Assembly: GCF_002836775.1 (NCBI RefSeq)
Contig: NZ_PJAQ01000068.1
Location: forward strand, 186,001 to 250,000
Source of the DNA: Colwellia sp. 12G3
GTDB lineage: Bacteria > Pseudomonadota > Gammaproteobacteria > Enterobacterales > Alteromonadaceae
Direction of reading: 5' to 3'
DNA length: 64,000 nucleotides
Shown here: positions 312 through 40,688 of the stretch, one piece after another
How positions within the stretch are numbered: position 1 is the stretch's first letter
How the letters are laid out: each line of letters begins with the position of its first letter
Made by a program: the position numbers and the translations under genes
Notes under the pieces: generated by a model
Seen by the model: only the letters and a program-made list of their open reading frames with translations
What the model was told of the DNA's origin: nothing
Database searches by the model: none

Positions 312-327
312 ATAACAAGCTTGTGAA
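312..327. promoter_or_regulatory. Palindrome copy 1 (putative operator)
   Basis: ATAACAAGCTTGTGAA, 14 of 16 positions matching TTCACAAGCTTGTGAA. It lies between the end of the zinc-ribbon gene (341) and the start of the partial gene (246), in promoter position for the latter. Operator function is inferred from recurrence and placement. Confidence 0.55.
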
Positions 328-340
328 GTATAAATTTTCG

Positions 341-2092
341 CTAAGGTATTGAAAATGCGAACCGGCCATCTTTATCTCCCCCATTATTTAATTTAAAGAA
401 GGTATCTTTGTTTTGGTCATGCACCCATACTGAGTTGCATGATCTATCATGGCACTGGCCTTTAAAATATCCACTCGGTTTAGTTACAAATGAGTGTTTA
501 TCACCTTCTTTTCCACAATAAGGACAATGGCGAACAAATGTTGCAATCGCATTTTTCAATTTGATTTTTTCCACAAGTTCTTGATTAGCCTGTTTGATAA
601 TAATATCGGTCTGTTCTTGGGTTAATGGAGTGTAGATTGACTTATTTTCAGATAATGCATGCTCAATAGGAGTTGGTAATTTATCTTGTAACGGCTCAAT
701 AAATATACCTAATAACCATCTCCATACACTTTTCACGATAAGTCTTGAAAGTGCTTCTTTAGCGTGGAGGTTTAAAGGTGATAACTCAACGATTGTACCG
801 AAGGTTTTCAGCACTCTTAGTTGGGGAGAGATAATGAAAGTCTCATCATCATAAGCCTGTGGCAAATCGTTTTCTTGTAATGGTTCTGCATTAATTATAA
901 TCCGCGCAATATCTTGCTGGTTGTGTCGAAATTCGAAACATCCTTGCTGTGGTCTATCTACCTTTATGCTCAAGTTGGAATTAATATCAATACTTGTCAT
1001 GTCGGTATTTGTTTCCCACCCTATATCTGCAAAGATTTGTTTAATAACCGTAGTGACATAATGTGTGTAGTCTAGCTGCCTTTGCTGCTTCATTGCTAAC
1101 ATCTGCTGCGGGTTAAGACGATTTTTGGCGGATACTTTCGACCAGCATCGCCAAATTTCAGCTAACCGTCGGTAATTGTCATCATGAGCTAATATATTGG
1201 TGGCTTTAAGCGCTATTCCTACCTGTAAATTTTTCGGTATTGACCGATAAAGCTCTCCATTTTTCATCTGAATTAATTTAGCGCTATATTGCTGAACAAT
1301 ATCCATTTGATCATGACTTTTCTGTTCTAATTCGCTCACATTAGCAGTTTCATATGCTCGCCCCCAGTCTTTTGATATTTGAATAATGTAGTGATGAATA
1401 TTACTTTGTGCATCAAGCTTCCCAAATTCGGCTATCACATCCAATATTTGTTGGATACGTGCTTGTGCGCCAGACAAGTATCGCAGTAAGTTATCAATTA
1501 ACCGGGCATATACTTTATTTTCATAAATAATGACCTCATCTTCACTGACTTGTCCTTTGAGTTTTTTAGGAATAATCCCCGTGAAAGTGCGTTGCTGCCA
1601 ACATTCAGAATGAGCAACTAGATGCGCTTGATAGTTTGAGGCATAACGCTTCACACGGCTTGTTTCCATGAGCTCAACATCATAACGCATGCTCATTCTA
1701 GGACATTGGTTTATCGTTTGAAATATACCATTACTAAACCCTGACATAATTGCTTTATCTAAATCAGTTGGCGCAATAAACTCAGAGACCTCTGGTGGTA
1801 ATAAGTGACTAAAGTTAACAATCGAATTATCTTCGTATTTTTCAGTAATATTCGCAATCGCATCAAAAGTTATATTTAATGCTTCGTCATTGTTTATTTT
1901 ATCTTTCTCGGTTTGATTCCGTTCATCTTGATTGAAGAACATGTCAATATCGCCCTGATGATAAGCTCCACTGCCATCATCAAATAGAATGACTTCCTGT
2001 TTGCCATCCATCAGAGTATAAAGCCCCGATGCTATAGTTATGCCTTTGTCACATTGCATTAACTCGCCACTTAGGCGTGAAAATAGCTGCAT
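341..2092 (-). CDS. Zinc-ribbon protein, last gene of the kinase/helicase/McrB operon
   Basis: 583 aa, not recognised as a named family. The C-terminus (about residues 530-570) has a four-cysteine zinc-ribbon pattern, HCPYCGKEG followed by CHDRSCNSVW, which suggests nucleic-acid or protein binding. The rest looks like a globular helical protein with no transmembrane segment. Its ATG shares one base with the stop of the McrB-like gene upstream (TAATG), so translation is probably coupled and the two products may form a complex. In McrBC-type systems the second gene often supplies the nuclease, but I see no PD-(D/E)xK motif here, so a nuclease role is not supported. It is the last gene of a seven-gene operon starting at 11990. 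Confidence 0.75.
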   Translation of the reverse strand: MQLFSRLSGELMQCDKGITIASGLYTLMDGKQEVILFDDGSGAYHQGDIDMFFNQDERNQTEKDKINNDEALNITFDAIANITEKYEDNSIVNFSHLLPPEVSEFIAPTDLDKAIMSGFSNGIFQTINQCPRMSMRYDVELMETSRVKRYASNYQAHLVAHSECWQQRTFTGIIPKKLKGQVSEDEVIIYENKVYARLIDNLLRYLSGAQARIQQILDVIAEFGKLDAQSNIHHYIIQISKDWGRAYETANVSELEQKSHDQMDIVQQYSAKLIQMKNGELYRSIPKNLQVGIALKATNILAHDDNYRRLAEIWRCWSKVSAKNRLNPQQMLAMKQQRQLDYTHYVTTVIKQIFADIGWETNTDMTSIDINSNLSIKVDRPQQGCFEFRHNQQDIARIIINAEPLQENDLPQAYDDETFIISPQLRVLKTFGTIVELSPLNLHAKEALSRLIVKSVWRWLLGIFIEPLQDKLPTPIEHALSENKSIYTPLTQEQTDIIIKQANQELVEKIKLKNAIATFVRHCPYCGKEGDKHSFVTKPSGYFKGQCHDRSCNSVWVHDQNKDTFFKLNNGGDKDGRFAFSIP

Positions 2093-4449
2093 TAAAAAAC
2101 ACCTTCTGCTTTAATCTCGGTTTCCGTCATTAATATGTGTGAAGATTCATCACAATCATTATCCAGCAGGGTTTCTAAAGCTATGAGTAACTTGTCTAGT
2201 TTTGTTTGAGATATATCAAAACGATCCAACACTTTGCCTTTACGAAGTACACGAGTGATTAGAAGATGTTCAAGTGCTTTAATCGCTTCACCACCACAAT
2301 CAATATAAACAGCAATAAACCGTAGAGCTTGAGTTTCAAATCGATTACCCCAGCCTATGCCAAAATCATTTTCTAATACCTTAGTAAATTCCGACTCTTT
2401 GAGTTTCGTTAGTAACTTGTTCACTTCATTTTTATTCTGTGATACTGCTTTGTCAAAGAGATCTCTGACAGATTGAATATCAATGGTCCCTTTAACTACT
2501 TTATTGTGTTTCCAGCCTTCGGGTTTATGCTGACGTTTAAGTTCCATCATAAATGAACGATCATGGGTTTTGTCTGCAAATTCAAACGTTGTTTCGTCAT
2601 GATTAGCTGTACCCATAAACCAGGTATTACTTGCCAATGGTATTTTACGATCTTCAACAAAGTATTTCGGGGGACTAGCAACACTTGAGTCCATCAATAC
2701 TATATTTCGTTCACCATCGCGCATTTCTATGGCGGATAGAAACTCAGCAAAGTATTGCTCAGGGCGAGAAAGATTCATCTCATCAAGTAAAATAATATTA
2801 AACCGATTTTTGTAACTCGGGGTATGCGCTTGATATAGTCCTTGTAAGCATTCTTTTTCATAATAGCGCTTTTCAAAGGCATTAAAATGACCTAATAAAT
2901 CATCTCTGTCGCGCCAGCCAGCTTGTACAGGAACAGTTGTTACATGACCACCAACAGCTTTAGCAAAGGCCTTTACCAAGCTAGTTTTACCTGTACCTGA
3001 TATCCCTTCAAAGACATGCAATTGACTCATGGCAAGGCCCGCCACAAATTTACGAAGATCATTGATATCATAATAAAGCGTGACATCTTTTTCAGCGGTA
3101 GCAATTCTATGCTGTAGCTCTTCGGTAAATTCACTTAATGAAGAGATAGCTGTTGTAGCTACAGGCTCTGCAAACTTTCTATCCATTTTGGTGAGTTCAC
3201 TAAAGGCTTGCTGTGACTGTTGTTTGTCTATGAGGTCATCTAAGGTAGCTTTAAGGCTATCGATGGATACTTTGAGTGTTTTATTATGCAATTCTAATGT
3301 ATCGTTTTGTGCTTTAAGTTCGAGTTTTTCACGAATACTTAGCTGGTTTTTTCGAGCCTTAGCTTGAGCTTCACCTAATTCTTGACGCATTATTTCTAAC
3401 TCTCCAGTTTTTTCTTCAGCGATATCTTTGTAGTGCTCAAGATCATCTTCAAGATCAGTCTCAGAGCGTCCTTTAAGTTTTGAACGGGCTTCTTTTAATT
3501 CTTGCTCAACATTGTCAAGATACTCTAATACATCATTAGGATCCGAAAATTCACGCATCTTAGCTGCGCGTTCTAATTCATAAAATCCGGCTATCTTTTG
3601 TTGCAGCTGTTTAAATTTATCGAGATCTCGTTGACGGTGTGTTTCAAGTAATTCAATTTTTTGTTCTAGCTGTTGCTCTTTAAATTTAAACTCATGGGCT
3701 AACTCTTGTTGTAAAGCCTGTGCTGTTAATTTTTGTTGATTTAACTGTTCATTAAATTGAAATTTCGCTGTATTTAATTCTATTTGATCTTCTTTTAATT
3801 GTTGCTGTAATTGCTCAAAGGAATGCCTTTGTGCATTTAAATTTTCAATTTCATTAGACAGCTTAGATTGTAATTGATCTTGAAAACCTGCTGCTTGTTG
3901 GCGCTGATGTGAAATTAAATCAACGTCACTTTTAAGCTTCTGCTGTTCTAGCGCACTTATATTTTGCTGCAGTTCGTTAAAGCTCTGCTTCATTGAGGCA
4001 ACTGATGCTTGGCGTTCACTCACAAATCCAGCTTGTGCGTTGGCTTCACGTTCTATTAACTGCGCTTCAATGTCGGCACACTCTCTTTCGCGCTTTAGCA
4101 ACAATTCTGAATTTTTTTCTATGACTTGCCGTGTTTGCGTTAACGCCTTATCTTCTTCCATTATGCGTTGTTTACGAGCATCAAATATCGTAACGTCTTT
4201 TTGAAGGTCTTGCTGTTTACTGGTTAACTCAGCTTGACTCTTCTCATTGTCGGTAATCGATTTGTTAAGGCTCGTTATTAATTCTGATAATTGGGTATCT
4301 TGTTCTGCATTAAGCTTGTTTTCAAGCTCGGGATCTAAGTCTATGTCCGCCTTATTAAATAAGCCCTTTAACAAACCCGATGGTTTGACAGAATGATTTG
4401 ATACTGCTGGAGCACCCGTTGATTTTTTATTCTTTTTTCCTTTAGCCAT
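2092..4449 (-). CDS. Coiled-coil McrB-like AAA+ ATPase
   Basis: 785 aa from the ATG at 4449, chosen over the upstream TTG at 4464 because GGAA lies 9 nt before it. A Lys-rich N-terminus is followed by a very long Gln/Glu/Lys-rich coiled coil (about residues 45-420). The C-terminal AAA+ domain has Walker A GISGTGKTSLVKA, Walker B IILLDEMNLSRPEQYF and sensor-type WFMGTANHDETT; the DEMNLSRPEQ block is typical of the McrB/dynein-like AAA branch (family knowledge). McrB proteins are usually GTPases driving a nuclease, but no McrC was seen. Start and stop overlap the neighbouring genes by a few bases. The coiled coil may serve as a long assembly or sensing rod (inference). Confidence 0.85.
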   Translation of the reverse strand: MAKGKKNKKSTGAPAVSNHSVKPSGLLKGLFNKADIDLDPELENKLNAEQDTQLSELITSLNKSITDNEKSQAELTSKQQDLQKDVTIFDARKQRIMEEDKALTQTRQVIEKNSELLLKRERECADIEAQLIEREANAQAGFVSERQASVASMKQSFNELQQNISALEQQKLKSDVDLISHQRQQAAGFQDQLQSKLSNEIENLNAQRHSFEQLQQQLKEDQIELNTAKFQFNEQLNQQKLTAQALQQELAHEFKFKEQQLEQKIELLETHRQRDLDKFKQLQQKIAGFYELERAAKMREFSDPNDVLEYLDNVEQELKEARSKLKGRSETDLEDDLEHYKDIAEEKTGELEIMRQELGEAQAKARKNQLSIREKLELKAQNDTLELHNKTLKVSIDSLKATLDDLIDKQQSQQAFSELTKMDRKFAEPVATTAISSLSEFTEELQHRIATAEKDVTLYYDINDLRKFVAGLAMSQLHVFEGISGTGKTSLVKAFAKAVGGHVTTVPVQAGWRDRDDLLGHFNAFEKRYYEKECLQGLYQAHTPSYKNRFNIILLDEMNLSRPEQYFAEFLSAIEMRDGERNIVLMDSSVASPPKYFVEDRKIPLASNTWFMGTANHDETTFEFADKTHDRSFMMELKRQHKPEGWKHNKVVKGTIDIQSVRDLFDKAVSQNKNEVNKLLTKLKESEFTKVLENDFGIGWGNRFETQALRFIAVYIDCGGEAIKALEHLLITRVLRKGKVLDRFDISQTKLDKLLIALETLLDNDCDESSHILMTETEIKAEGVF

Positions 4450-5914
4450 TTTTTTCAATTCCAATAAATAATTTGTTTAAAAAAGTGTCGATCAAACCTA
4501 CAGCGTTATTAACTGTTGTTATTGAGACATTGGGGGGGGATTTGTGCGCACAATCGTCACGTAAAAAAGTTAACGCGTAGAAGCGCTTAAAATATGTTTG
4601 ATCATCAAGCAGAAACTTTAATGGATGCTGACGATGATTACCCATTGATATAAAAATGGCGACAAGCTGTGCCCTAAGCGAACTATTTTTCCCTTTCGCT
4701 GCACTAAATATTTTTGAGGGTTGAACCTTAGTAGACTGGTTTAACATATCTACTGACATGCCTGTCGCTTCTGCTATCAAATGTTTAATGATCTCAGTAC
4801 CATTTTTAGTTTGTGGTTTGGGTAATTCGTAAGGGTTTTCTAACACATAGTCTTTCAAAACCTGCGTACAAACGACTTCGAGAACCTGTCCACAGCTAAC
4901 AATTAATTTTGTTTTAGTGCTGTTATGAGGCGATTTTTCATGAGAAATCCTTTCATGTGCTTCAAACATTTCAAAAAGAGCATCAGTTAACCCAGGTGTT
5001 TTTTTTGCGTTAGGGTATTTAACTAACACTGTAAAGTTAGCTTTTTCTGAAAAATTTAAACAAGCTTCTTCATAATCCATTTTCGCATTACCTACATCAA
5101 GTGCTGCAAGTGCAAATTGGCCTAACGCTTTATTAGACTTACATCCTTGTTGAAATAATTCTTTCATCCATGTTGCTTTAGTTGAAATACCAAAGGGATC
5201 ATATAACGTCCATTCAAAACTCGTTTGAGTATCACCCCAAACAGTTAAGTAAGCGGGTGTTGCACCTTGCGGTGCGAGCGTTAGTCTGTCAACTTTAGAC
5301 TGTTCCGGCTGCCATTCATCGTTATCACGGGTGTTTTTGGCAATATAAATAGCCTCTTGAAAATCAGTCGAAATTGACCTCAAGTCCTCTTCGTTTGGTG
5401 GCATTGATTCAATACTTCTTGAAGCAATAACAAAAGGCACTGACACATAATCACTCGATCGCTTAAATTTAAATTTAAGCCTGTCCGAGTTATTAATTGA
5501 ATATATTTCTTCAAGATTAAAACACACTCTTGGTAACCATTGATGGGTAATTGCACACTGGAATACATAGGCAGTAGTTAAACTAGCATTTACCTCATCA
5601 TCGAGTATTTTAGTACCGCTTTCTGTCACTTGCCCTTTTTCAGTTAACCAGCCATTAGGTATAAGCTGCGCGGTGATAATATAGCTTACCATGTCAGTTT
5701 CTAGCCCTAACCAGTTAGCTATATCTTCATTTTTTAAATTACGTTTATCTGAAACATTAAATAGTTGTAAAATTGTTTTTTCAAATATGTTTAGCTCTCT
5801 TCCTTTTGGACTATTGGTATACACCTGCCACATATGCACTGGCCATAACATCGACTTGGCATCATAGTCTGGCTGCTTTGTTTGTAAAAAATAAGTATTA
5901 GCGAACACAGCCAT
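4442..5914 (-). CDS. Unknown protein with C-terminal HEPN-like motif
   Basis: 490 aa from the ATG at 5914 (MAVFANTYFLQ), preferred over the upstream ATG at 5983 because AAGGAG directly precedes it; the gap is only 3 nt. Residues about 40-110 look like a winged-helix-type segment. Near the C-terminus, FLRDDCAHKSP has the R-x4-H arrangement typical of HEPN ribonucleases, where Arg and His form the active site (family knowledge); it sits between predicted helices as in HEPN folds. An RNase effector role is inference from that motif and the operon. The gene overlaps the helicase gene's 3' end by 17 bp and the McrB-like gene by 8 bp. Confidence 0.7.
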   Translation of the reverse strand: MAVFANTYFLQTKQPDYDAKSMLWPVHMWQVYTNSPKGRELNIFEKTILQLFNVSDKRNLKNEDIANWLGLETDMVSYIITAQLIPNGWLTEKGQVTESGTKILDDEVNASLTTAYVFQCAITHQWLPRVCFNLEEIYSINNSDRLKFKFKRSSDYVSVPFVIASRSIESMPPNEEDLRSISTDFQEAIYIAKNTRDNDEWQPEQSKVDRLTLAPQGATPAYLTVWGDTQTSFEWTLYDPFGISTKATWMKELFQQGCKSNKALGQFALAALDVGNAKMDYEEACLNFSEKANFTVLVKYPNAKKTPGLTDALFEMFEAHERISHEKSPHNSTKTKLIVSCGQVLEVVCTQVLKDYVLENPYELPKPQTKNGTEIIKHLIAEATGMSVDMLNQSTKVQPSKIFSAAKGKNSSLRAQLVAIFISMGNHRQHPLKFLLDDQTYFKRFYALTFLRDDCAHKSPPNVSITTVNNAVGLIDTFLNKLFIGIEKNG

Positions 5915-8900
5915 GCTCTCCTTGACATAATTGATAAAATGCATTGAAACCTGGCAATACTTGCTGCTTCGTTCCATCTTCAAATTCGGTTGTTTCCGCT
6001 AACTCAGGATTGGTGAGTGATTTGTCACCAACAACTATTAATAACCGTTTTTGCCTACTCATGGCGACATTGATACGATTTATAATTCTTAAAAAACCAA
6101 GCTGCTTATTAATATCGTCACTATTAAATGAAGTACCTGATCGCCAAGATCTCACTGTGGACAGTAAAACAACATCAAATTCTTTCCCCTGAAACGCATC
6201 GACTGAACCAACACGAAAACGTTCATCACCATTAGATAGCTGGTCATAACCTGTAGCAGGCTCATACTCGTCAAAGGTCTTTTTCATTATTCCTTTATCG
6301 ACCATAAGGTCTTGTATCCGATCACGCTGTGCGGAATAAAAGGTAATAATCCCAACTGACAAATCAGGACGTTTGTTTAGAATATTAGCCGCTTCTTGGG
6401 CGACAATAACAGCTTCACATTGACGATATTTGGAACCATTTAATTCGTTCATTTTCCCTGACTTTTTATCAACATCTAACCAAGCAGCTAATTTCCCTTC
6501 ATAATTAGGCACATCCAACGGAAAGTCCTTATCTTTTAAACCAGACTTAACAGCCGGTAAACCTGCCGATTCATAAAATTCTTTACTGTGGAATGCACCA
6601 AGCACCGGGTGCATTCGAAACTGAGTATCTAGCATCACAACTCGCTTTGGCCCACCCTCGTTCTCAAATTTTGTTAAATCATGATATAGCCGCTCAAATA
6701 AACTTTGCTTGAGTAATTCATGACCAGTGATTTCTATTTCATTTTTGTCATGCAGCTCTTTCTCAACTTGGGGTTCAAGCATATGTGGTAATTGCTTATG
6801 GTCGCCCACCAGCACTATGCGCGTTCTTGCCATAGCCATAGGTATCATTAGATCAAGTGGATTAGCACGAGCAGCCTCGTCAAGGATCACGGAATCAAAC
6901 TTGATATTTTCACTTTGTTCAACTGATTTAAGTGAAACCATTTTGTCACCAGCCGCTTGCTGACAAGTTGCACCGAGTACCGTAACGTATTCTGCAATTG
7001 ATCGTTCGACTACGGAGGGTTGATTGCGTAGTGTCTCTATATATTGCTGTCGAAAATATAGTTTCCCTAACGTAGGGTTGTTAGTGAGTGTCAGCTCCAG
7101 GTCTTCTTGTAACAGTTCTAAATTATCAATCTCTTTTTCTGTCACATGACGTGCACCTGGTATCACATAAGGTGATTTTAAACCTTCTAGTAAACCTTGT
7201 TTAACTGATTCGTATTGTGAGGAACTAGCGTCATCATTTATTAGCGCTTTTATTTTTTTGGCGTACTCTTGGGTTTCCTCTAATGTCTCTAAGGTTTGTA
7301 ACAAGCTCTTCGCTCGTAACAAGCCATCATCATTAAATGCGATATCGGTTGTTCTTACCCCTCTAACTTTACGATATAGTAATGTTATTTGTTCTTTAGA
7401 TAGATTAAGACAAGGCAAGCTTGAAAACCTTTCAGTTAAAGCATCAATACCATCTAGAATTGATGCTTTGATATTAAAGCCATAATCAATTTGCCACTCA
7501 TTAAGTTTTTTTCTTAACGATAATAACAAGAATTTATGGTCGCTCGGAGTAGTGGCAAGACGAATTGATAATACAAGCTCATTGATTGACTCAAATAATT
7601 TATATTCTGAAAACTTTTGTAACTCATAGCTAATATTCGGATTTAAGCTTTCAATACGCTGCTGGGTCCACTGTGATATTCCCGAACCCGAGTTTCTATT
7701 TCTTTCTCTTCCTCCTACTTTTAATGCGGGTAATCCAAACACTCCCGATCTGTCTACAACGTTAGTTACGGCATCATGCTGATAGCTACTGAGTAACACT
7801 TGATGTTGAATCGGCGAACCAAATTTATCTCCTTCTTCAGCTATACGTTGTTGTAATGCAGAGATAACTTGTGTTTTCCCAGTTCCGGGTGGTCCGATAA
7901 TTAAAGCTATATCCGGTGTATTTAACGCTATTTTTAGTGCTTTCTCTTGTTGCCTAGTAGGGTCACTCTTAAAGCGCGCTTTAGCTTTTTTTGATAATGC
8001 CTTAATACGTTTAGGTCTTTGCTGTGGAGGCTGTAGCCCTTCAAAAATATGTTTAATTTGGGGCAATGGATTATTGCCTTGGCGGAGAGAATTGAACGCT
8101 GACATTTTACGTTCTTGTGCGGTTTTAATACCATTAAGAGATATATAGATTACCCCCTTACTCGGTGGCCTTTCTTTGAGAGTTCCTTCTAACACGCCAT
8201 TAGTAAATTTCAATTCTTTTAACCAATTAGGCTTTCCACCTTGTTTCGCTGATAAATTTAACGATTGAGCAACATCAGTTAAATAGTCTGGTGCGTCTTC
8301 AGCTACCTGCAACTCTAAGTTATCAATGTTGAATCGTTCACCTATGTTCTCTAATTCAGCTTTATATTTATCGAGAAAATTATTAATTGGAGCTTCGCCT
8401 AAAACAAATCGATATCGAATTTTTTCATCCGTGATAGATTCACAATCACAATAAGATAAAAATCCAGCAGACTTGGCTATACGAGACGCTTGTTGCCAAT
8501 GAGTTTCTGAATACTTAAGCCATAATTGAAAATAGCTACCATGTTCTTTGGTGTGCTGCTCAAGCATCAATTGCTGCGTTGGTTCATCCACTGCGCTACT
8601 TGAGTTAAATTCGACTAACTGATGTTCACCACAAAACATGGTTAATTTTTCGGGGGTCCTATTTAATGGTATTACGGTGTTGATATACCACGATTTATCA
8701 TTCTTAATAATGTTAGCTGCATATTTTTCACCAATAATTTTAAAACTATCTCCTAGCGCCGTTGCATGAAACTCGCATAACATGGCATTTTGTTGTTGAT
8801 AATTAAAATAGAACGTCTGCTCAAACCACTGTTGTGTTGCCGAAAAGGTAAGTTCGACTCCAGATACTTTTGCTATGGCGCTAATTGAAGATTGGTCAAG

Positions 8901-9212
8901 ATTGATTGTCACTTTTTCAGGGCATAGGTTACGTAAGTACATAAACTTTATGGCAACTGCCGTAGTTTTTTTATAACAAACTACGGCGAGAACAACTTGG
9001 GGATCATTTCTATTCACTGCTTTAGCTAAGGGCAAATGTGAAAATGTTACTTCCTCAAAACAGTCACCTTGCTTAAGGTAGAACAATCCATGATCTTCAA
9101 ATATCTCGACGCTCTCACCGACAAGCCAATTAAATGAAGTTTCTGATGAATTTTCTAATATTAATTCTACAACATCCGACTCTAGTAACTTTGATTCTAA
9201 TAATCTCATCAT
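5898..9212 (-). CDS. Superfamily 1 DNA/RNA helicase (Dna2/Upf1-like)
   Basis: 1104 aa. The N-terminal ~400 residues are not recognised. The helicase core has Walker A LIIGPPGTGKTQVISAL (about residue 440), motif II VILDEAARANPLDLM, motif III VGDHKQLPHML, motif IV-like DTQFRMHPVLG, and motifs V/VI VGSVDAFQGKEFDVVLLS and INVAMSRQKRLLIVVG. This set marks the Upf1/Dna2 branch of SF1 (family knowledge), predicting ATP-driven 5'-3' unwinding of DNA or RNA. About 200 extra residues sit between Walker A and motif II. The start is ATG ATG at 9212/9209, with GAGG just upstream. It follows the kinase stop by 5 bp and is part of the same operon. Confidence 0.9.
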   Translation of the reverse strand: MMRLLESKLLESDVVELILENSSETSFNWLVGESVEIFEDHGLFYLKQGDCFEEVTFSHLPLAKAVNRNDPQVVLAVVCYKKTTAVAIKFMYLRNLCPEKVTINLDQSSISAIAKVSGVELTFSATQQWFEQTFYFNYQQQNAMLCEFHATALGDSFKIIGEKYAANIIKNDKSWYINTVIPLNRTPEKLTMFCGEHQLVEFNSSSAVDEPTQQLMLEQHTKEHGSYFQLWLKYSETHWQQASRIAKSAGFLSYCDCESITDEKIRYRFVLGEAPINNFLDKYKAELENIGERFNIDNLELQVAEDAPDYLTDVAQSLNLSAKQGGKPNWLKELKFTNGVLEGTLKERPPSKGVIYISLNGIKTAQERKMSAFNSLRQGNNPLPQIKHIFEGLQPPQQRPKRIKALSKKAKARFKSDPTRQQEKALKIALNTPDIALIIGPPGTGKTQVISALQQRIAEEGDKFGSPIQHQVLLSSYQHDAVTNVVDRSGVFGLPALKVGGRERNRNSGSGISQWTQQRIESLNPNISYELQKFSEYKLFESINELVLSIRLATTPSDHKFLLLSLRKKLNEWQIDYGFNIKASILDGIDALTERFSSLPCLNLSKEQITLLYRKVRGVRTTDIAFNDDGLLRAKSLLQTLETLEETQEYAKKIKALINDDASSSQYESVKQGLLEGLKSPYVIPGARHVTEKEIDNLELLQEDLELTLTNNPTLGKLYFRQQYIETLRNQPSVVERSIAEYVTVLGATCQQAAGDKMVSLKSVEQSENIKFDSVILDEAARANPLDLMIPMAMARTRIVLVGDHKQLPHMLEPQVEKELHDKNEIEITGHELLKQSLFERLYHDLTKFENEGGPKRVVMLDTQFRMHPVLGAFHSKEFYESAGLPAVKSGLKDKDFPLDVPNYEGKLAAWLDVDKKSGKMNELNGSKYRQCEAVIVAQEAANILNKRPDLSVGIITFYSAQRDRIQDLMVDKGIMKKTFDEYEPATGYDQLSNGDERFRVGSVDAFQGKEFDVVLLSTVRSWRSGTSFNSDDINKQLGFLRIINRINVAMSRQKRLLIVVGDKSLTNPELAETTEFEDGTKQQVLPGFNAFYQLCQGEHGCVR

Positions 9213-9217
9213 TTACC

Positions 9218-11300: not shown

Positions 11301-11303
11301 TAC

Positions 11304-13836: not shown

Positions 13837-13848
13837 AATTGGCTCCCT

Positions 13849-14238: not shown

Positions 14239-14239
14239 G

Positions 14240-27536: not shown

Positions 27537-27634
27537 GACAAGACAACAAATGTAAGTCTGTAAACTTCTAATTATTGAAACAGGTGCTGCTTAACACGCA
27601 CACCTTTTTATTAATAATTTAGAGGTACAGACAT

Positions 27635-28231: not shown

Positions 28232-28239
28232 GAGTTGTC

Positions 28240-29005: not shown

Positions 29006-29021
29006 TTCACAAGGTTGTGAA
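29006..29021. promoter_or_regulatory. Palindrome copy 7 (between convergent genes)
   Basis: TTCACAAGGTTGTGAA, flanked by G and C so that 8-bp arms match around a central GG. It lies between darG and the CARF gene, which converge, so it is not in a usual promoter position. It could act as a distal operator or be fortuitous. Confidence 0.4.
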
Positions 29022-29097
29022 CAACAAGCCTAACAATTAACTCTGTAATATGAACTACACAATGAGACGGTGAAGGATTACTGCTCGCCAAACAACT

Positions 29098-33398: not shown

Positions 33399-33907
33399 TA
33401 TTGTACTTCCTTGTTATTTAATGCATCGAAGCCTAGAAATTGCTGTGCTAGTGGTAACCAACGTCCTTCGTTAACACCTTCGCTTTCAAGTTGCCACCAT
33501 AAGCGGTAGCTTGCAGTTGTTGCTTGTTCTTTTAAGTTATTACGAATAATCAATTGTTGCTCGGTATAAAATTGCTTCTCCGCTTTAGTTTCCTCAACGA
33601 GGAAACTAGTTAAAAGGTAACTATCCCCTTGTTGTAACTTAACGTGCAAACTATCGTTTTTTGCATTGCAGTATTGCGCTTCTAAAATATTAGGTTTACT
33701 TGGTGCTTGCGCTGAAATAACAAGTTCATCACTGTATTGTACCCAGCCTTGCGTGGCTGAAAATGTTTCAATAACGATTACTAACTGCCTTACGCTCACA
33801 ACTTCTGTCTTCACAGTTAAGTTTGCTGAATATACTTTAGGCAGCTCTAGTTCAGAGATATCCGCTTTAAGATGTTCATATTGAGTTAGGCTTTCACTTA
33901 AGCTCAT
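33398..33907 (-). CDS. csx19: Csx19-like small protein of type III-D CRISPR
   Basis: 169 aa. The sequence is beta-rich and weakly conserved; its size and position between two RAMP genes next to the TIGR03986-type gene fit Csx19 (TIGR03984), a type III-D marker. The C-terminus SYRLWWQLESEGVNEGRWLPLAQQ supports a folded unit. The role in the family is poorly known; it may occupy a small-subunit position. It overlaps both neighbours (ATGA at one end, one base at the other). Confidence 0.65.
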   Translation of the reverse strand: MSLSESLTQYEHLKADISELELPKVYSANLTVKTEVVSVRQLVIVIETFSATQGWVQYSDELVISAQAPSKPNILEAQYCNAKNDSLHVKLQQGDSYLLTSFLVEETKAEKQFYTEQQLIIRNNLKEQATTASYRLWWQLESEGVNEGRWLPLAQQFLGFDALNNKEVQ

Positions 33908-35379
33908 GAGCTTGCTCCTTGTGTTTCTTCAGTTACTGCCAGTATGCTTTCTGTTTTTATGTGGTCTAAATTAACAAGCCAAGACTTTTCCGGATTAGCC
34001 ATAACTATGCTAGTACCTCTGCCACTTCCAGCTCCCATAGGTAATAAACCTATTTTTAAATCATCTAAGGTATCACTGAGTGCTTGTTTTAAGGAGTGGG
34101 ATAATACCGTTCCTTTTTTGATATTTAACGTTAAGGTAAATTCAGGTTGGTATAAAAGTTCTTCACTGTATAAGGCGCCTTTTCTTACGCCTCCGGTAAA
34201 CCGATCTATGCTGTTGTGGTGGCGAATAGTGGTATCAACAAAACTAATATCACTATCATCAACATATAAGCTGCCCGCTAGGCTGTTTTCATGATCATTT
34301 TGGTCAGCAAAGCCTAATAAGTATTTTAACCCTTCGGGACGTGTTTCCCATTGTTCATGGCTTGCATGTTCCATCTCTTCTGCCCACATACCAGTTTTAC
34401 CTAATAAAGCCTCATGTCGGCGCCAATGGAAAGTAATACGGTGTGCTAATATTCCTTTGATACTGCTGCCACACAATACTGCTTTAGGTTCTGAAATTTC
34501 GGCTTGAGTTTTTCCAGCCTTGCTATGCCATTTTACTTTGGGTTCACTGTAAGTGATCATCGCAATGCTTTTATCTGCTTCACCTTTATTATATTTACCT
34601 AAAAGCTGCGAACCTGCTCCTGAACGCCAGTTATCAAGTGCTTTTAAAGGTAATGTTGCAAATACATTTTGCTCTGCAATAAAATTAATATTATTCTTTT
34701 CAGGGATGTTTTCCCGTAATGCATGGCTTTGCATTTTATGAGATGCGCTAATAACGTCGCTTAAGTTAATGACTTCGGTATTACTTGCAACAACTGTTAA
34801 TTTCCCTAATCCATTTCGGGTATTTGCACCTAATGCAAACAACGGGTTTTGCCAACAATTTAATAGGTCATCCCATTCTTTGGAGATTGTGTCATTTGCC
34901 AACCTGTCATCATAAAACTTTATGTCAATGCAGAAACGTATACCTGCCGGTAACAAAATCTGGTCAAATTTACCCGTATTTTTAGCTACGCCTCTGTCGT
35001 TAATGCTCACTCGTTCTCGGTGATGAGGCCTAGCCTGCACTAACATACTTAATAAGCTGTCTTGGTTGATTGCTTCAGGGGTTAATAAGCCTTGAACTGG
35101 TTTGTTTTTACTGTTGTGCAATACACCGTCGCTTATCGTTAACGTTGATGATTGGCTTTCTTTACCTGTATATCCAAACCAGTTATCAATGCTATTTTCA
35201 CTTAAAACCTCTTTTGCTAAGTGTTTCCATACTCCAGCAATACTAGTTGCAGGCACATAAGGTAAATTGTTGGCATCTCTTGCAAGTTGGCTATCAAAAC
35301 CTACTTCTCGGTTACCGGTATTTATGGCCATAGGGCTTTGCGTTTCAATGATTAAACGCGTTAAATAAACTTTACCCAT
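33904..35379 (-). CDS. Double-domain Csm3/Cas7-like RAMP protein
   Basis: 491 aa from the ATG at 35379 (MGKVYLTRLIIE), with GGGAG 8 nt upstream; the ATG at 35412 lacks a ribosome site. It has two Cas7-like halves: the first with YVPATSIAGVWKHLAKE, DRVGVAK-type RERVSINDRGVAKNTG and LGANTRNGLGKL, the second with CGSSIKGILAHRI, NSIDRFTGGVRKGALYSEE and the glycine loop PMGAGSGRGTSIV. Fused Cas7 proteins build the backbone of III-D and III-E type complexes (family knowledge). Backbone Asp residues in such loops cut target RNA every 6 nt; which one acts here is not clear. Confidence 0.83.
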   Translation of the reverse strand: MGKVYLTRLIIETQSPMAINTGNREVGFDSQLARDANNLPYVPATSIAGVWKHLAKEVLSENSIDNWFGYTGKESQSSTLTISDGVLHNSKNKPVQGLLTPEAINQDSLLSMLVQARPHHRERVSINDRGVAKNTGKFDQILLPAGIRFCIDIKFYDDRLANDTISKEWDDLLNCWQNPLFALGANTRNGLGKLTVVASNTEVINLSDVISASHKMQSHALRENIPEKNNINFIAEQNVFATLPLKALDNWRSGAGSQLLGKYNKGEADKSIAMITYSEPKVKWHSKAGKTQAEISEPKAVLCGSSIKGILAHRITFHWRRHEALLGKTGMWAEEMEHASHEQWETRPEGLKYLLGFADQNDHENSLAGSLYVDDSDISFVDTTIRHHNSIDRFTGGVRKGALYSEELLYQPEFTLTLNIKKGTVLSHSLKQALSDTLDDLKIGLLPMGAGSGRGTSIVMANPEKSWLVNLDHIKTESILAVTEETQGASS

Positions 35380-36961
35380 GTGCGTAACTCCCTTGTTCGC
35401 TGTTTTGCTCATTAACGTGATATTCTTTCGCTATTTTTTGTAATTGCTTAAAGTTAGATAGATCATATCGGCATAGCTGCTCTAATAATAAACGCATAGT
35501 GGCAATGTTTTGCTCTTGTAATAACATTTTTATTTCATCGGAAAAAGTAGTTTGCCCTGAGGTAGTTGCAAGCGTTATGCCCCAACCTAACTCATCATTT
35601 TTAGCCTTACAAATTGCTTGTTCACTATTAAAAACGCCTTGGTACCATTGAGGGTTATCAACACGGACTTCTTCACTTATTCTACGCCATTGTGTGGATG
35701 ACGGACCGGCTTCATTGCTATGTAATATGTGGTGATATTTTCGAGCACTTTGGTATAAGCTTATAATTGTGCTGATAAGTTTATTAACACTTTTCTGTAG
35801 GTCATCTGAATCTTGTTGTTTATTTACTTGTGATGATAACCATTGCACTAATGTACTATCGCTACTTGCATACTCTTGTGCAGGAGTTTGTATCCTTTCT
35901 AAAGGCAAAGGTGTAAATAAACCGCTACTACTTAATGTGTCTTTTAGCGACCATGAAGGGTTTACACTAACCCAGCCTAAACCATATTGTTGATTAATAC
36001 CTACGCCGCTAGTGCTGATGTCATTCAATACGCTTTGCTCTAGTTGCTGAGTTAATTTAAATGTTAAAACACTCCCCTTAGCAACCAACACTTGCTCGGT
36101 ATCTAATCCTTGTCGTTTTTGATTAAAGCGACTTACTTTGATACTTCGAATAAAGCTTTTTTCAGCAATTAATGTGGCGTTTTTTAATGCCGAATGAATA
36201 TTAGCCCCCGAAGGCGTTAATGTAGGTAAACCGGCGTCGTTAATAAATTCAGTATCACTTAGGCACCATAAAATAAGCTCATCTGGGTTGTTTGTAATTT
36301 TTGTTAATGATTGGGTTTCTACAAGGTTTAGCTCTACACGGCCAAATTCTGTATTGCGTGAGCGACCAATACGAATATTGCCATCAAGTAAGGTCTTAAT
36401 AGCAAGGCTTACTTCGTTATCACTATCATCAAGTTCAACCCACCCCGAAAACGTCTGACCTGCTTCAATAAAGCTGTAGGTAAACAATTTTGCATCTTCT
36501 GCGCTTCCCGTGGAACTACTTAAAGCAGTTTTAGTACTATTGCCCATTTCTATGTTCGCAATATAGCCATTACTGTTTACGAAACCATTTCGACATTGTT
36601 TGTATTGAATACTTTCATCTCGAATGAAATTAGCTGCACTGTGATTACTTAAAATAGCGTTATTGTATTTATTGTTGTTCGTAAGGTTTTCACTTTCTAC
36701 TTTAGAATAATTCCAACTAGCGGGTGTAGGTAAAGCAATTTCATTATTAACTACCGGATAACAAGGGCTAAACTTTACTTGCCCACTATGAAATACTCGC
36801 CAACTTTGATCTACTGAGAATTGAGGGTAAAACTTAGCCGCAAAAGCCCCTAAAATGGAACTGCCAGGGATATAATCTAAACACTCATGGTTATTCGTTG
36901 TTCCATTATTTTGACTGACAATAATGGGATCAATTGTGGTTAAGGTATAATATATACGCAT
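35372..36961 (-). CDS. csx10: Csx10-like Cas5-type RAMP protein
   Basis: 529 aa. It begins MRIYYTLTTIDPIIVSQ and has CLDYIPGSSILGAFAAKF, the pattern of Csx10 (TIGR02674), the Cas5-like protein that marks type III-D. Another RAMP glycine motif is IRIGRSRNTEFGRVEL around residue 200, and QQYGLGWVSVNP further on. It probably holds the 5' handle of crRNA beside Cas10 (family knowledge). It is separated by 2 bp from the single-domain RAMP gene upstream. Confidence 0.83.
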   Translation of the reverse strand: MRIYYTLTTIDPIIVSQNNGTTNNHECLDYIPGSSILGAFAAKFYPQFSVDQSWRVFHSGQVKFSPCYPVVNNEIALPTPASWNYSKVESENLTNNNKYNNAILSNHSAANFIRDESIQYKQCRNGFVNSNGYIANIEMGNSTKTALSSSTGSAEDAKLFTYSFIEAGQTFSGWVELDDSDNEVSLAIKTLLDGNIRIGRSRNTEFGRVELNLVETQSLTKITNNPDELILWCLSDTEFINDAGLPTLTPSGANIHSALKNATLIAEKSFIRSIKVSRFNQKRQGLDTEQVLVAKGSVLTFKLTQQLEQSVLNDISTSGVGINQQYGLGWVSVNPSWSLKDTLSSSGLFTPLPLERIQTPAQEYASSDSTLVQWLSSQVNKQQDSDDLQKSVNKLISTIISLYQSARKYHHILHSNEAGPSSTQWRRISEEVRVDNPQWYQGVFNSEQAICKAKNDELGWGITLATTSGQTTFSDEIKMLLQEQNIATMRLLLEQLCRYDLSNFKQLQKIAKEYHVNEQNSEQGSYAHG

Positions 36962-36963
36962 CT

Positions 36964-37590
36964 TTATAGCTCCTGCTTCACGTTAACAATTACTTTACCT
37001 AAACCTCGATGACGCTTAGCGCCTATTTCAGTAATAAAGCTGACAACCTGTTCTAACCACACATTTAGCTTTTCATTAACTAAACTCTTATTTTCTAAAT
37101 ATGCTACATGGCTTGTATTTAGTGCTATTTGTGCTGTTAATAACATTGGTACACAAACTTCTAAACTGCGTAAGCTCGTGTTTTTAGCTACACCTGTTTC
37201 GCCATTTATAGCTGTGGAGTAAGTTATTTTATAGAGTTGAGATTTAGCTTGAGGGTGTTGCGTTAAAAAATTAATTTCTTGCGACGATAAAACACCACTA
37301 CTTATTTGCAATAACCCTTGATTAGAGCTGCCATCTTTATTTTCATGGCCAAATAACAAGTCGACTAAAGTATTTTTATTCTCGACATCTGTACTTATAA
37401 CATCAGTAAACCAGTTGTTTTTTTCTGCACGTGTAAACGCATCTCGCAACAAGCCTTTAATGCTTTTACCGGGTAAATAAGGTAATTGCTGAGTATTTTT
37501 AAGCACTAGAGCATCGGCATAAGCCCCACCTTCTAATCCGGACCCGACATGCCAGTAGCTTTGAATATTAAATTCCATATTAAAAATCAT
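36964..37590 (-). CDS. Csm3-like Cas7 RAMP protein
   Basis: 208 aa, single-domain Cas7 size. Motifs: YWHVGSGLEGG, LPYLPGKSIKGLLRDAF, INGETGVAKNTSLRSLE (crRNA-contact thumb region) and the C-terminal glycine loop GAKRHRGLGKVIV. It should be a backbone subunit that cuts bound target RNA (family knowledge). Its ATG shares one base with the cas10 stop. Confidence 0.85.
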   Translation of the reverse strand: MIFNMEFNIQSYWHVGSGLEGGAYADALVLKNTQQLPYLPGKSIKGLLRDAFTRAEKNNWFTDVISTDVENKNTLVDLLFGHENKDGSSNQGLLQISSGVLSSQEINFLTQHPQAKSQLYKITYSTAINGETGVAKNTSLRSLEVCVPMLLTAQIALNTSHVAYLENKSLVNEKLNVWLEQVVSFITEIGAKRHRGLGKVIVNVKQEL

Positions 37591-39362
37591 TATGCTATTT
37601 CCTCAATATTGGTATTGCTAAGCTCTACTGTGTTAACTTCTGCAAAGTGATCAACTATTAACATATCGCTAATAACCGATTGTAATTGGGTAGGATCTTG
37701 ATTATTTATCGGCCAATACCATTTTTCAAAATTGTTATTACCACTTGAACGTCCTGATAACCTCCTTAACTGCTCCTCTTGCTGTTGACTTAACTTAACA
37801 TCGCCAAGATTTACCGCACGGTCATAAATTCTATCTGCTTCAACTTTGTTACCCAAGGCAAGTGCTGTTGCCATTTGTCTCCATTTAGTCATTGAAATAG
37901 GAGATTTTGGTTCATTAGATAAATTTATGCATCGTAATAAGTTGTCTATACTTTGATGATTATCATTTTCATCCACTACATAGGCGTTAACGCCTAGACT
38001 TAGTACTTGTTCGTTGTCTTTATCTTTTACATTAAAGCGCTGACTTTGAGTACAGAGTGTTTCGATGTCACTAGACACCGAGTTAGACAACCTAAAGAAG
38101 GCTAACGCTGCAGGACCAATGTTTTCGTCAATTGTTTTGGTTAACTTCTTAGCTTTAGCACATAAGCCTTCCACTAAGTGATGGCTATGGATAAAAGGGT
38201 GATTTGCTTTATGGTATAAAATACCTCCACTTGCCGTTAAGTAGGGCTTAATTTTTTCTGCATTAACTAAGTGCTCTTTATACAGTCCCACTAATGCTTT
38301 TTGAGAAGACTCTTTAAAGGCTTTACAAAAGATAGTGCTATATTTTAAAGCTAAATCAGCACGACACAGTAGGGTTACATCATCGCCCCCTAGTACAAGG
38401 GGACGCATAGGTAAGTAAACTTTACTGCTATTTGGTAATTGGTAATTGGCAACATTATAGATTGCTAGTGTTGCTTGTTGCGCGGCCTGTTGCGTTGCGG
38501 TAGAAAGTGCTTCGGAAAACTGACGAAATGCATTACAAAATTGGTCGTCAGTTGCCTTTTTTAATGTACTTTGCAGCGCTCGTAATAAAAGCCCTAAGCC
38601 ATTACCATCTATATGAATAAGCGCCATGTCTTTAATGGCTTCTTTATCTGATTTTTTAATAGCATTTTTAGCTAAAAATTGAAAATTATTTTCTAGATCA
38701 ACAGGGTAATAAACGTTACGAGGTTCACCTTTATTACTTTTAAGCGATGGTGGTGTAAATTTGTCTTGTAGTGCAGAACCTTCTTTCATCCCTAAGTTAC
38801 GATAAGCCTGCCGATGTAAATTGGTGTCTAAATCTAAACATTGTTTATCTTCAGGGCTTTCATGCTTAGCCTGAGAAGATATTGGCGTAGCCGCTTCCCC
38901 CGTTCGAGTAGAGCGTTCAGCTATACTAGTAGCAATAGGAAACTTAACGGTTGGTGTATTCCTGTCTGCCGCAAGTTGTTTATGGCCTTTTTGAATAGCT
39001 TTTTGTAATGTATCAGCTGAAACTAAAGCATCTGTAAACTCGAGTGTTGGAAACATTTGCTGCAATGCTAATGTCCATAGGTTTCTTAACTTAACTAAAG
39101 GTAACTTATCTTTGCTGTAACAATAAAATGCCCCCCCTTTACAGCGTATAAAGCGAATAGTGTTATCGCTTATTTCACTCTTATGACTCACTAAGTCAGA
39201 GGTTAACTGAGCGCTGTGTAGTACCTTAGATAACAAACTTTCTTTGTTGTCGTCTATAAGTAAGTCTAATCGCTCACTAGTGGCAATGATGTCCTTTACT
39301 TTCCCTGTTTTAAATAGATAGTGCTGAATAGATTTTGCTTCAAATAAATAGCTGTAAACCAT
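37590..39362 (-). CDS. cas10: Cas10 with GGDD cyclase site, lacking an HD domain
   Basis: 590 aa from the ATG at 39362 (MVYSYLFEAKSIQHYLF), with AAGGA 7 nt upstream; the 39398 start has no ribosome site. The first palm domain starts at the N-terminus. The second has MALIHIDGNGLGLLL and LVLGGDDVTLLC, where GGDD is the nucleotidyl-cyclase site making cyclic oligoadenylate (family knowledge). The usual N-terminal HD nuclease (~100-200 residues with a His-Asp pair) is missing, so DNA cleavage by Cas10 itself is not expected. A C-terminal helical domain with LRRLSGRSSGNNNFEKWYW follows. It is the first gene of the cas operon. Confidence 0.88.
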   Translation of the reverse strand: MVYSYLFEAKSIQHYLFKTGKVKDIIATSERLDLLIDDNKESLLSKVLHSAQLTSDLVSHKSEISDNTIRFIRCKGGAFYCYSKDKLPLVKLRNLWTLALQQMFPTLEFTDALVSADTLQKAIQKGHKQLAADRNTPTVKFPIATSIAERSTRTGEAATPISSQAKHESPEDKQCLDLDTNLHRQAYRNLGMKEGSALQDKFTPPSLKSNKGEPRNVYYPVDLENNFQFLAKNAIKKSDKEAIKDMALIHIDGNGLGLLLRALQSTLKKATDDQFCNAFRQFSEALSTATQQAAQQATLAIYNVANYQLPNSSKVYLPMRPLVLGGDDVTLLCRADLALKYSTIFCKAFKESSQKALVGLYKEHLVNAEKIKPYLTASGGILYHKANHPFIHSHHLVEGLCAKAKKLTKTIDENIGPAALAFFRLSNSVSSDIETLCTQSQRFNVKDKDNEQVLSLGVNAYVVDENDNHQSIDNLLRCINLSNEPKSPISMTKWRQMATALALGNKVEADRIYDRAVNLGDVKLSQQQEEQLRRLSGRSSGNNNFEKWYWPINNQDPTQLQSVISDMLIVDHFAEVNTVELSNTNIEEIA

Positions 39363-39666
39363 TAGAATTCCTTTTACTGTTGTTTTAATTTTGATCATTT
39401 AGCACTTTAAAATGCAATTTATTTAAATAGTAGAAACATATTATTATGTGACCCTAATTTTCATTTTGTAGCTTCTTGTTACGAACAAAAAATATTATTT
39501 TCCTCGTATTTGCGTATGATTGAACTCGTTGACGTGCTTTAATTCTGACTTTTACTCTCTTCATCATACTTCCAAATATAAGACTATATGTAAATGATTT
39601 TATTGTATTATTTATGTTACAAAATTCACCTTCAATTAATGATGATGTATGGGAAGTCCAGTATAT
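39363..39666. other. Promoter region of the type III cas operon
   Basis: About 300 bp of AT-rich sequence between the LRAT gene stop and the cas10 start, both minus strand. No copy of the 16-bp palindrome was seen here. A small dyad, TTGTTACGAACAA, occurs near 39477-39489. No gene or terminator is convincing. Confidence 0.5.
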
Positions 39667-40368
39667 TTAATCAAACCAGGAAGCTATTGCATTAAAAGCA
39701 CTACCAACAACTTTAAATGGTGCTTCTACAATATCAATAGCGGTATCAACTGTACCTTCAACAAGGGTGGTAACTGCATCGACTATTTCACCTTCAGATA
39801 GTTTTTCATAAGTATCTCCGACAGTTTTACTTACCCCTATTACACCAGCCTCTAAAGGTTTTGCTAACAGGTCTCCTGGCGTACCAATGACTGTATTTAT
39901 GCTGTCAGGTAATCCTACGTACTCGCCAACAGCTTTAGCTCCTGTAGATACTATTGCGATAGTCCCAACGGTACTTTTAGCAAATTCAGCTGCCGTTGAA
40001 CCGAACACTCCGTTTCTAGCCGCAACATGAGTAATGAGATGAGCTGCATTACTCACTTGATTTGAAGTATGGATTTTATCAAGACAATAATTAACAAACT
40101 GCTCACAATTTTTAAAGAGTACATGATATCCAGTGGTTCCTAGCTCTTCCTTTGCAGTTTCAATTGCACATATAGGATTACTTGCGGAACGTTTTATCCG
40201 CACTTCCTTCCCACCTGAAAAAGAATGAACACTTGTTTTTAAAATTTCTGAGTATTGGCCCGTTAAATGAATTACATCACCTTGGCCCATATACAAACCG
40301 TGATGCTCAGTAACACCTAAAATATCGATATTCGTTACAAGGTGATCACCCGTTTTAAATACAGTCAT
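39667..40368 (-). CDS. LRAT/NlpC-P60-like domain protein with hydrophobic C-terminus
   Basis: 233 aa from the ATG at 40368 (MTVFKTGDHLVTN), with GGAGAA upstream; the frame continues to 40527 but without start signals. The N-terminal domain matches LRAT-type thiol acyltransferases/hydrolases: GDHL, VTEHHGLYMG (catalytic His) and FKNCEQFVNYCL (catalytic Cys in an NCEHF-like box). The last ~110 residues are Val/Ala/Gly/Ile-rich with repeated amphipathic segments, probably membrane-associating. Such proteins act on acyl chains or membranes (family knowledge). The link to the CRISPR locus is its position upstream of cas10 and the shared palindrome 71 bp before its start. Confidence 0.78.
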   Translation of the reverse strand: MTVFKTGDHLVTNIDILGVTEHHGLYMGQGDVIHLTGQYSEILKTSVHSFSGGKEVRIKRSASNPICAIETAKEELGTTGYHVLFKNCEQFVNYCLDKIHTSNQVSNAAHLITHVAARNGVFGSTAAEFAKSTVGTIAIVSTGAKAVGEYVGLPDSINTVIGTPGDLLAKPLEAGVIGVSKTVGDTYEKLSEGEIVDAVTTLVEGTVDTAIDIVEAPFKVVGSAFNAIASWFD

Positions 40369-40688
40369 AATTTTCTCCAAACACATTAAATAAGTTACTA
40401 ACGTGATTGAATATATAATGAATAAATGACTGAATAGATTTAACAAGCTTGTGAATGAGATGAAACACCGAAACTGTTCATATGAGAGACTGTTGATGTT
40501 TGTTTTAATTTTATACGTAAAAATCACACCGTATAATTTACTTCGCTAAAAGCCAACATTAGGTGATTAACATGCTCTATTGATGATTAATGCTAGCTGA
40601 GAGTTCTAGTCAATATTTACTACAATTACCAATACAATTTATTCTCGATGTAATATAGTTATAATTCCATTAATGAAATCCGTTTTCT
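40369..40688. other. Divergent intergenic region with palindrome copy 8
   Basis: 320 bp between the LRAT gene and the HTH/M15-like gene. It contains palindrome copy 8 (40440-40455) and a TATAAT at 40660-40665 that could be the -10 box of the plus-strand gene; its -35 is poor. No gene was found. Confidence 0.55.
40440..40455. promoter_or_regulatory. Palindrome copy 8 (putative operator)
   Basis: TTAACAAGCTTGTGAA, identical to copy 4 and one mismatch from perfect. It lies 71 bp upstream of the LRAT gene start and is the last copy seen in the window. Confidence 0.6.

Follow-up and report, generated by a model that had tools for sequence, protein, structure and literature searches.

A probable palindromic operator shared across a defence island of Colwellia sp. 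12G3 and its probable regulators of the Cas_NE0113 family

A near-identical 16-bp palindrome recurs eight times in a defence island that occupies the left part of a 64,000-nucleotide stretch of the genome of Colwellia sp. 12G3 (RefSeq assembly GCF_002836775.1, contig NZ_PJAQ01000068.1, positions 186,001 to 250,000; this whole stretch is called the window). The palindrome is most probably the operator of transcription activators of the Cas_NE0113 family, in which a CARF domain is joined to a winged helix-turn-helix (wHTH) domain, and the island is most probably their regulon, judging from sequence comparisons and predicted structures. Two such proteins are encoded in the island, P0001 (392 aa) and P0002 (378 aa). 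The original prediction had proposed a single regulator for all sites; our results support, as very probable, either one regulator or this kind of pair of paralogues.

Putative operator sites in the window

The palindromes, named here by their first position, are exactly TTMACAAGCTTGTKAA at 18989, 20205, 27521 and 40440, while those at 312, 12057, 16528 and 29006 are one base off. Allowing one mismatch to TTMACAAGCTTGTKAA, eight matches are found in the window, against a mean of 0.005 and a maximum of 1 in 200 Markov shuffles. The whole genome (5.06 Mb, 68 contigs) contains nine places that match at this threshold, eight of them in the island; the ninth, at C5:70090, is located within a 501-aa open reading frame (ORF), and visual inspection showed no -10 box there at the spacing typical of the island. 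With up to two mismatches, there are no matches between 41 and 64 kb of the window, nor in the 60 kb to its left and the 40 kb to its right.

All eight sites are intergenic once two gene starts are corrected, the intergenic share of the first 41 kb being 9% by the ORF list. The ORF tool had placed both starts too early: for TerY, the in-frame ATG at 11990 replaces the GTG at 12047, leaving 66 bp to site 12057, and for the LRAT gene the in-frame ATG at 40368 replaces the GTG at 40527, leaving 71 bp to site 40440. With these starts, a start codon is located 65–114 bp downstream of seven of the eight sites. Site 29006, situated between converging genes, is followed in the rightward direction by a -10 box at the spacing of the others. 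The coordinates in the original prediction were thus all right, and its statements that the palindromes never fall inside a gene and that seven of them lie 65–114 bp before a start codon hold with the corrected starts. The absence of sites from 41 to 64 kb also stood, and a similar density elsewhere in the genome, which would have spoken against the original prediction, was not found.

The probable regulators P0001 and P0002

The original prediction had seen no candidate regulator in the left 40 kb. P0001 lies inside it, its gene closing the type III CRISPR operon, and P0002 is encoded just left of the window, where its gene, the second behind site 312 after a 531-aa gene, begins 1.45 kb outside. 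The two proteins share 39% identity over 293 columns. Both exceed the curated cut-off of PF09623 and that of TIGR02584 (80.65 bits), with TIGR02584 scores of 234.1 bits for P0001 and 221.5 bits for P0002. In NCBIfam, at E ≤ 0.01, both match cas_NE0113 and csx14, P0001 also matches cas_Crn1, and neither matches the Csa3 sequence family.

The structure models have pLDDT values of 92.6 and 93.1, and for P0001 they show a confidently predicted CARF domain and a C-terminal winged helix; the winged helix of P0002 was assigned by alignment alone. Foldseek searches with the CARF part of P0001 gave Sis0455 (E 9.4e-5), Cam1 (1.1e-4), Cad1 (3e-4) and Card1 (4.5e-4), with a weak match to Csa3 (E 0.007). 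The top matches are ring nucleases and CARF structures with bound cyclic tetra-adenylate (cA4), and some other Rossmann proteins are also in the list. For the C-terminal domain of P0001, the 14 best structure matches are all OmpR/PhoB-family chains. In both proteins the N-terminus is formed by the CARF domain and not by a receiver domain, and Pfam searches found no WYL domain in either. P0001 and P0002 are the only proteins of the genome that match this wHTH.

Co-occurrence of the operator and NE0113 proteins

NE0113 loci were collected as the best 80 of 231 found in species genomes, plus ten from whole genomes; removal of four copies of one locus of a metagenome-assembled genome (MAG) left 86. 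When all 64 half-site triplets were tested around the NE0113 genes, only CAA stood out, in the form of CAA-NN-TTG near-palindromes with the core CAAGCTTG: 73 were found against 10.1 expected, in 53 of the 86 loci, the next triplet reaching 36 against 21.6. After removal of close relatives, 65 near-palindromes remained (8.4 expected), in 46 of 74 loci. A site is present within 400 bp upstream of 50 of 88 NE0113 genes, both home copies being counted and both lacking one, where the local density predicts about four; without close relatives the count is 44 of 76. Among the hosts of genes with an upstream site are Pseudomonadota, Acidobacteriota, Binatota and Thermodesulfobacteriota, together with a MAG labelled Bacillota; both loci from Nitrospirota are without one. 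As a side observation, five NE0113 loci of one MAG (L131–L135; uncultured Pseudomonadales, CATOTI) have 11–13 kb in common at 99.98–100% identity, which would fit multiplication or mobility of the locus or an error of the assembly.

For a second set, the RAMP family was used to collect 32 type III loci, of which three (L187, L205 and L211) overlapped the first set and were dropped. A site with a -10 box at 24–26 nt is present in all ten loci with NE0113 in the fetched piece, in five of the seven with NE0113 elsewhere in the genome and in two of the 12 from genomes without a TIGR02584 match. Pooled, this amounts to 15 of 17 with NE0113 against 2 of 12 without (Fisher p 0.0003), in a grouping made after the first results had been seen. 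One of the 12 genomes, G504, contains a truncated NE0113 relative, found by a custom hidden Markov model (HMM), and no site.

Within the genus, NE0113 is present in one of 39 genomes, the one with the site cluster; the other 38 have 0–6 sites each, at most two of them within 25 kb (G022 and G029). Elsewhere, both genome-wide matches of G244 lie on its NE0113 contig, and G169, G137 and G082 have one match each within 25 kb of NE0113. Conservation in relatives, anticipated in the original prediction, therefore stands for relatives that carry NE0113 and fails for the 38 members of the genus that do not.

Promoter geometry

In the island, a -10 box starts 23 or 24 nt past the 16-mer in all eight promoter orientations tested (seven sites, 20205 being read both ways), where the control rate is 0.087. 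Of 52 upstream sites in the other loci, 27 have a [TC]ANNNT hexamer that starts 25 nt past the 16-mer and 8 have it at 26 nt (24 and 7 of 46 without close relatives), 1.07 being expected per position. The TANNNT spacing peaks at 23–24 nt in the island and in loci of the P0002 clade described below, and at 25–26 nt in the other loci, most type III-linked ones among them. Some spacings of 23–24 nt, beside others at 25 nt, are found in the type III genomes L126, G114 and G189. The control of the spacing count gave an upstream "-10" peak at 24 nt (13 of 52), which we read as conserved C-terminal codons of cas6. No TTGACA-like -35 element was seen by eye.

Given the fixed spacing to the -10 box, the operator would lie at about -52 to -37. 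Class II-like activators sit at about this position, while repressor sites usually overlap the -35 element, the -10 box or the start. Since the site does not reach into the -35 region, keeps a constant distance to the -10 box and has no visible TTGACA-like -35 beside it, activation is the likelier mode, and the arrangement of operator and -10 box likelier has the geometry of an activator promoter.

The P0002 clade

In a tree of 88 NE0113 proteins, P0002 falls into a clade of 12 with full support and a long stem. No RAMP genes were found in 13 of 13 genomes, namely those of the 11 other clade members and G137 and G082, which have P0002-like copies; they are present in all six tested tree members outside the clade and in the home genome. 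RAMPs are also absent from two further NE0113 genomes, G073 (incomplete) and G148 (broken copy). RAMP models were used as the type III marker because the Cas10 palm model, rejected for this purpose, gave many weak matches, including in the E. coli control, which we take to be GGDEF proteins.

Fourteen loci, the home locus included, were compared, a single member of each gene group being used to check its name. Type I methylase and specificity genes are present in nine, DruH in five, DruE in four, ZorA in four and TerY in four. Operators of the clade include TTCATAAGCTTGTGAA and variants with the TAAGCTTA core. Relaxed sites (0–4 mismatches) with a -10 box at 23–25 nt precede DruH in five of five cases and a gene of the 325-aa type in five of five, each set holding one pair of close relatives. 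By contrast, they precede the methylase in only 2 of 9, an HsdR-like gene in 2 of 6, TerY in 2 of 3, ZorA in 1 of 3 and another gene in 0 of 5. The chance of a match per 700 bp (23–24 nt) is 0.002, 0.018 and 0.07 at two, three and four mismatches; single matches at four mismatches, being near chance, are therefore not evidence. The P0002 operons of Colwellia L152 and G244 have retained site 312 together with its spacing of 23 nt, and the home sites, by their 23–24 nt spacing, look like operators of the P0002 clade. CBASS was considered as a general source of a ligand for the clade and rejected, SMODS being found in 2 of 14 genomes and not in the home genome.

Proposed mechanism and alternatives

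A CARF-wHTH dimer would bind the dyad just upstream of the -35 region and recruit RNA polymerase to weak sigma-70 promoters, and a nucleotide produced upon phage infection and held in the CARF domain would switch the regulator. The operator would then precede eight transcription starts of one defence island, those of the TerY-kinase-helicase, SSB/Zorya-like, DinG, primase, Cas2-Cas1-Cas2, DarTG and LRAT (possibly with type III) units and of the P0002 operon itself, as well as a ninth, at 29006, without a known gene. Infection sensed by one system would therefore raise all units. P0002 is most likely the reader of the sites, and P0001 may share them. A cyclic oligoadenylate could be made for P0001, as Cas10 keeps its LGGDD cyclase motif. 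A wider reading is plausible, though we would not count on it: a clade of CARF-wHTH activators independent of CRISPR may act as an interferon-like alarm that responds to a nucleotide signal by switching on whole islands of several systems, such as Zorya, Druantia III, type I restriction and TerY kinase modules. In the present island, which would have captured a type III locus, sensing of phage RNA might also induce spacer acquisition and DarTG, with two sensors on one operator.

Several observations weigh against an operator read by these proteins. No site is present within 400 bp upstream of 38 of the 88 NE0113 genes, both home genes among them, and in the P0002 clade a relaxed match is found within 700 bp of 2 of 12 NE0113 genes, although the operon start may be further up. 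The OmpR/PhoB matches of P0001 are singly weak (best E 0.06, none at or below 0.001). A cyclic oligoadenylate is doubtful as the ligand of P0002, because genomes of its clade have no RAMP genes. At home, site 29006 heads no known gene and the -10 box of site 12057 (CATCAT) is poor. Two MAGs of one genus, G438 (L215) and G700 (L210), have CAAGCTTG operators, some of their type III sites with a -10 box at 25 nt, and no NE0113 match; either a contig is missing or another regulator is at work. Near-palindromes are also in excess in type III loci whose fetched piece lacks NE0113 (10 against 1.9 expected, 19 loci), as in those whose piece contains it (7 against 1.1, 10 loci). Genome-wide motif counts fail to tell genomes that carry NE0113 from those that lack it, being 0–3 in both groups (22 other genomes with, 18 without), and were dropped as a marker.

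It is possible, if rather unlikely, that P0001 and not P0002 is the main reader, the regulon being the direct output of cyclic oligoadenylate made by Cas10. P0001 is encoded within the cluster, in the type III operon with its intact LGGDD motif, and the type III genomes L126, G114 and G189 share some of the shorter spacings. However, home spacing and flanks match the P0002 clade and not most type III-linked loci, the P0001 gene has no site of its own within 400 bp, and sites like 312 and 12057 precede the same genes in G244, TerY included, and in L152 (312 only, TerY lying outside the fetched piece), where P0002 orthologues occur without RAMP genes. That the NE0113 protein is instead a repressor, leaving its sites upon ligand binding, is improbable: repression is common among regulators of defence loci, as with BrxR and CapW, but the position of the site wholly upstream of -35, its fixed distance to the -10 box and the lack of a visible TTGACA-like -35 speak against it.

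Very little speaks for a reader outside the NE0113 family, such as the WYL protein encoded at 47379–48347. WYL proteins do regulate defence loci, this one lies 7 kb to the right, and the MAGs G438 and G700 have sites without an NE0113 match; yet no site with up to two mismatches is near the WYL gene, BLAST (E 1e-6) found no relative of its product in the 86 NE0113 loci, and the operator tracks NE0113 over several phyla, so this candidate was rejected. Even less credible is a role of the palindromes as borders of modules or as recombination sites. They do lie between modules, and 29006 between converging genes, but borders would account neither for the constant distance to the -10 box nor for the presence of the palindrome before the regulator gene in unrelated genomes. 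An operator read by NE0113 activators, P0002 foremost, remains the most probable explanation.

Relation to known systems

NE0113 proteins were predicted to be transcription regulators in 2014 by Makarova and co-authors (PMC4012209), the only paper in which a full-text search of the literature covered found the family names. In that literature, mostly open-access and judged largely from titles and the opening of abstracts, neither this operator nor its regulon was found to be described, in keeping with the original prediction. Within the reach of this search, the promoter geometry and the clade that lacks type III are likewise undescribed. A passage of PMC11229360 leaves the transcription regulators of type III loci for later work, and passages of PMC12669027 count transcription regulators among type III effectors without naming the NE0113 family there. 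P0001 and P0002 belong to Cas_NE0113 (TIGR02584, PF09623), although NCBIfam names this family a ring nuclease.

Csa3 of archaeal type I-A systems likewise has an N-terminal CARF domain and a C-terminal winged helix, and is described in parts of PMC8699464, PMC8844856 and PMC9704534 as controlling adaptation and CRISPR genes. Unlike Csa3, the NE0113 proteins form a different sequence family, are associated with bacterial sigma-70 promoters and a predicted regulon that includes non-CRISPR defences, and have one clade in genomes without RAMP genes. The CalpL-CalpT-CalpS system also turns type III signalling into a transcription response, according to a section of PMC11229360. It acts through a protease and release of a sigma factor, whereas a one-component operator-binding protein is predicted here. 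BrxR and CapW are dedicated regulators of defence loci with a WYL sensor, serving one system each; here the sensor would be a CARF domain and the systems many. With the OmpR/PhoB family the DNA-binding domain has the common winged-helix fold, the CARF domain replacing the receiver domain. OmpR/PhoB activators also sit just upstream of -35, but on direct repeats, while the site described here is a perfect dyad.

The way in which the many systems of a defence island are coordinated is little understood. An operator that they share, predictable and of constant promoter geometry, offers a handle, as it names a likely regulator and lets regulons be predicted elsewhere. Druantia III and Zorya II work together, as stated in part of PMC13192584, and a common operator could help explain the co-induction of such cooperating systems.

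Predicted regulon in other genomes

In G187 and G293, genomes of 2.0–2.3 Mb, five and four sites of the type ACAAATTTGT are present, all with a -10 box at 25 nt. Behind them lie Cas10 (G187), Cas_VVA1548-Card1-NE0113, a 116/119-aa gene, SSB (G293) and a 281/284-aa gene with Cas2-Cas1-Cas2; one G187 site heads no visible gene. In Alishewanella L154, a site of the same kind precedes darT-darG. A survey of 80 loci, counting both strands and overlapping loci, gave 134 cases of a site, a -10 box and a gene in succession. Scanning 128 of the 197 downstream gene references (repeats included) identified RAMPs (27), Cas2 (12), the Cas10 palm (11), Cas1 (8) and Cas6 (8), with single matches to SSB, DarT, PP2C and an N6-methylase; cas genes are expected here, because NE0113 or RAMPs had served to select the loci. 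Common to the home regulon and other loci are DarTG, SSB and the adaptation genes, and Cas10 is also found behind such sites. Separate lineages thus seem to have placed the same systems under one switch (adaptation genes, SSB, DarTG and Cas10; Druantia III and neighbours).

Units of the island

The predicted operators and the units they head are listed in Table 1.

Table 1. Predicted operators, putative -10 boxes and associated genes of the island (window coordinates; negative values lie left of the window).
Feature	Position	Strand	-10 box (position; spacing)	Genes headed or content	Basis
P0002, CARF-wHTH regulator	-2585 to -1449 (L018:17415-18551)	-			HMM
531-aa gene, start	1–246 (full frame -1349 to 246)	-			
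Operator 1	312–327	-	TATGAT (283–288; 23 nt)	531-aa gene and NE0113 P0002	
TerY operon	341–11990	-		TerY, PP2C phosphatase, protein kinase, helicase, 513-aa, AAA and 583-aa genes	Pfam
Operator 2	12057–12072	-	CATCAT, weak (12027–12032; 24 nt)	TerY operon	
ssb/zorAB operon	12476–16449	-		134-aa gene, SSB, three genes without known function, ZorA-like (245 aa), ZorB-like	Pfam, PADLOC
Operator 3	16528–16543	-	TATTAT (16498–16503)	ssb/zorAB operon	
DinG-like helicase	16583–18874			behind operator 4	
Operator 4	18989–19004	-	TATACT (18959–18964)	DinG-like helicase	
Toprim/primase-like gene	19012–20118	-			Toprim_3, below Pfam cut-off
Operator 5	20205–20220	bidirectional	TATTAT leftward (20175–20180); TATAGT rightward (20245–20250)		
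Cas2, Cas1, Cas2 (adaptation)	20323–21957	+			
CRISPR array	22136–25400			about 53 repeats (GTCATAACAAAGCCCTGTTTATAAAGGGATTAAGAC), behind cas2-cas1-cas2	
Operator 6	27521–27536	+	TAAACT (27561–27566)	darT-darG	
DarT toxin and DarG (macro domain) antitoxin	27635–28956	+			Pfam
Operator 7	29006–29021	+	TAATAT (29046–29051; 24 nt)		
P0001, NE0113 regulator (CARF and OmpR/PhoB-like wHTH)	29098–30276	-		last gene of type III operon	Pfam, HMM, structure model
Type III effector genes	30310–39398	-		Cas10, RAMPs, Csx19, Cas6	
Operator 8	40440–40455	-	TATATT (40410–40415)	LRAT (start 40368)	

Site 20205 would serve the primase-like gene on its left and the Cas2-Cas1-Cas2 genes on its right. A rightward transcript from site 29006 would be antisense to the 3' end of the P0001 gene, a possible feedback. 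The gap between the LRAT gene and cas10 is 268 bp, and site 40440 possibly also drives the type III operon behind LRAT. The L152 orthologue of the 531-aa gene has an N-terminus like that of PADLOC PDC-M16A; searches of solved structures with this orthologue and with the 583-aa and 513-aa genes gave nothing useful. The ZorA-like protein (13099–13836) has 245 residues against 583–745 in the ZorA homologues of the P0002 clade, so its tail seems to be missing.

The TerY-PP2C-kinase-helicase-AAA gene set is conserved in G244, G137, L152 and G220, where it is linked to NE0113 in genomes that lack RAMP genes, and may constitute a separate defence system not yet described. G244 and G137 have it as in the home genome and L152 from the helicase on (the rest lies outside the fetched piece); in G220 the 513-aa and 583-aa genes are missing. 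To the right of the island, the gene of the WYL-domain regulator is followed by genes at 48656–51245 with weak HEC-01A-like and DndB-like matches, forming a separate block without operator. The remaining stretch, 51469–63627, likewise without operator, contains probable defence genes: a PLD nuclease-like gene, a HATPase, a ResIII helicase, a DUF4007 gene and a large ATPase.

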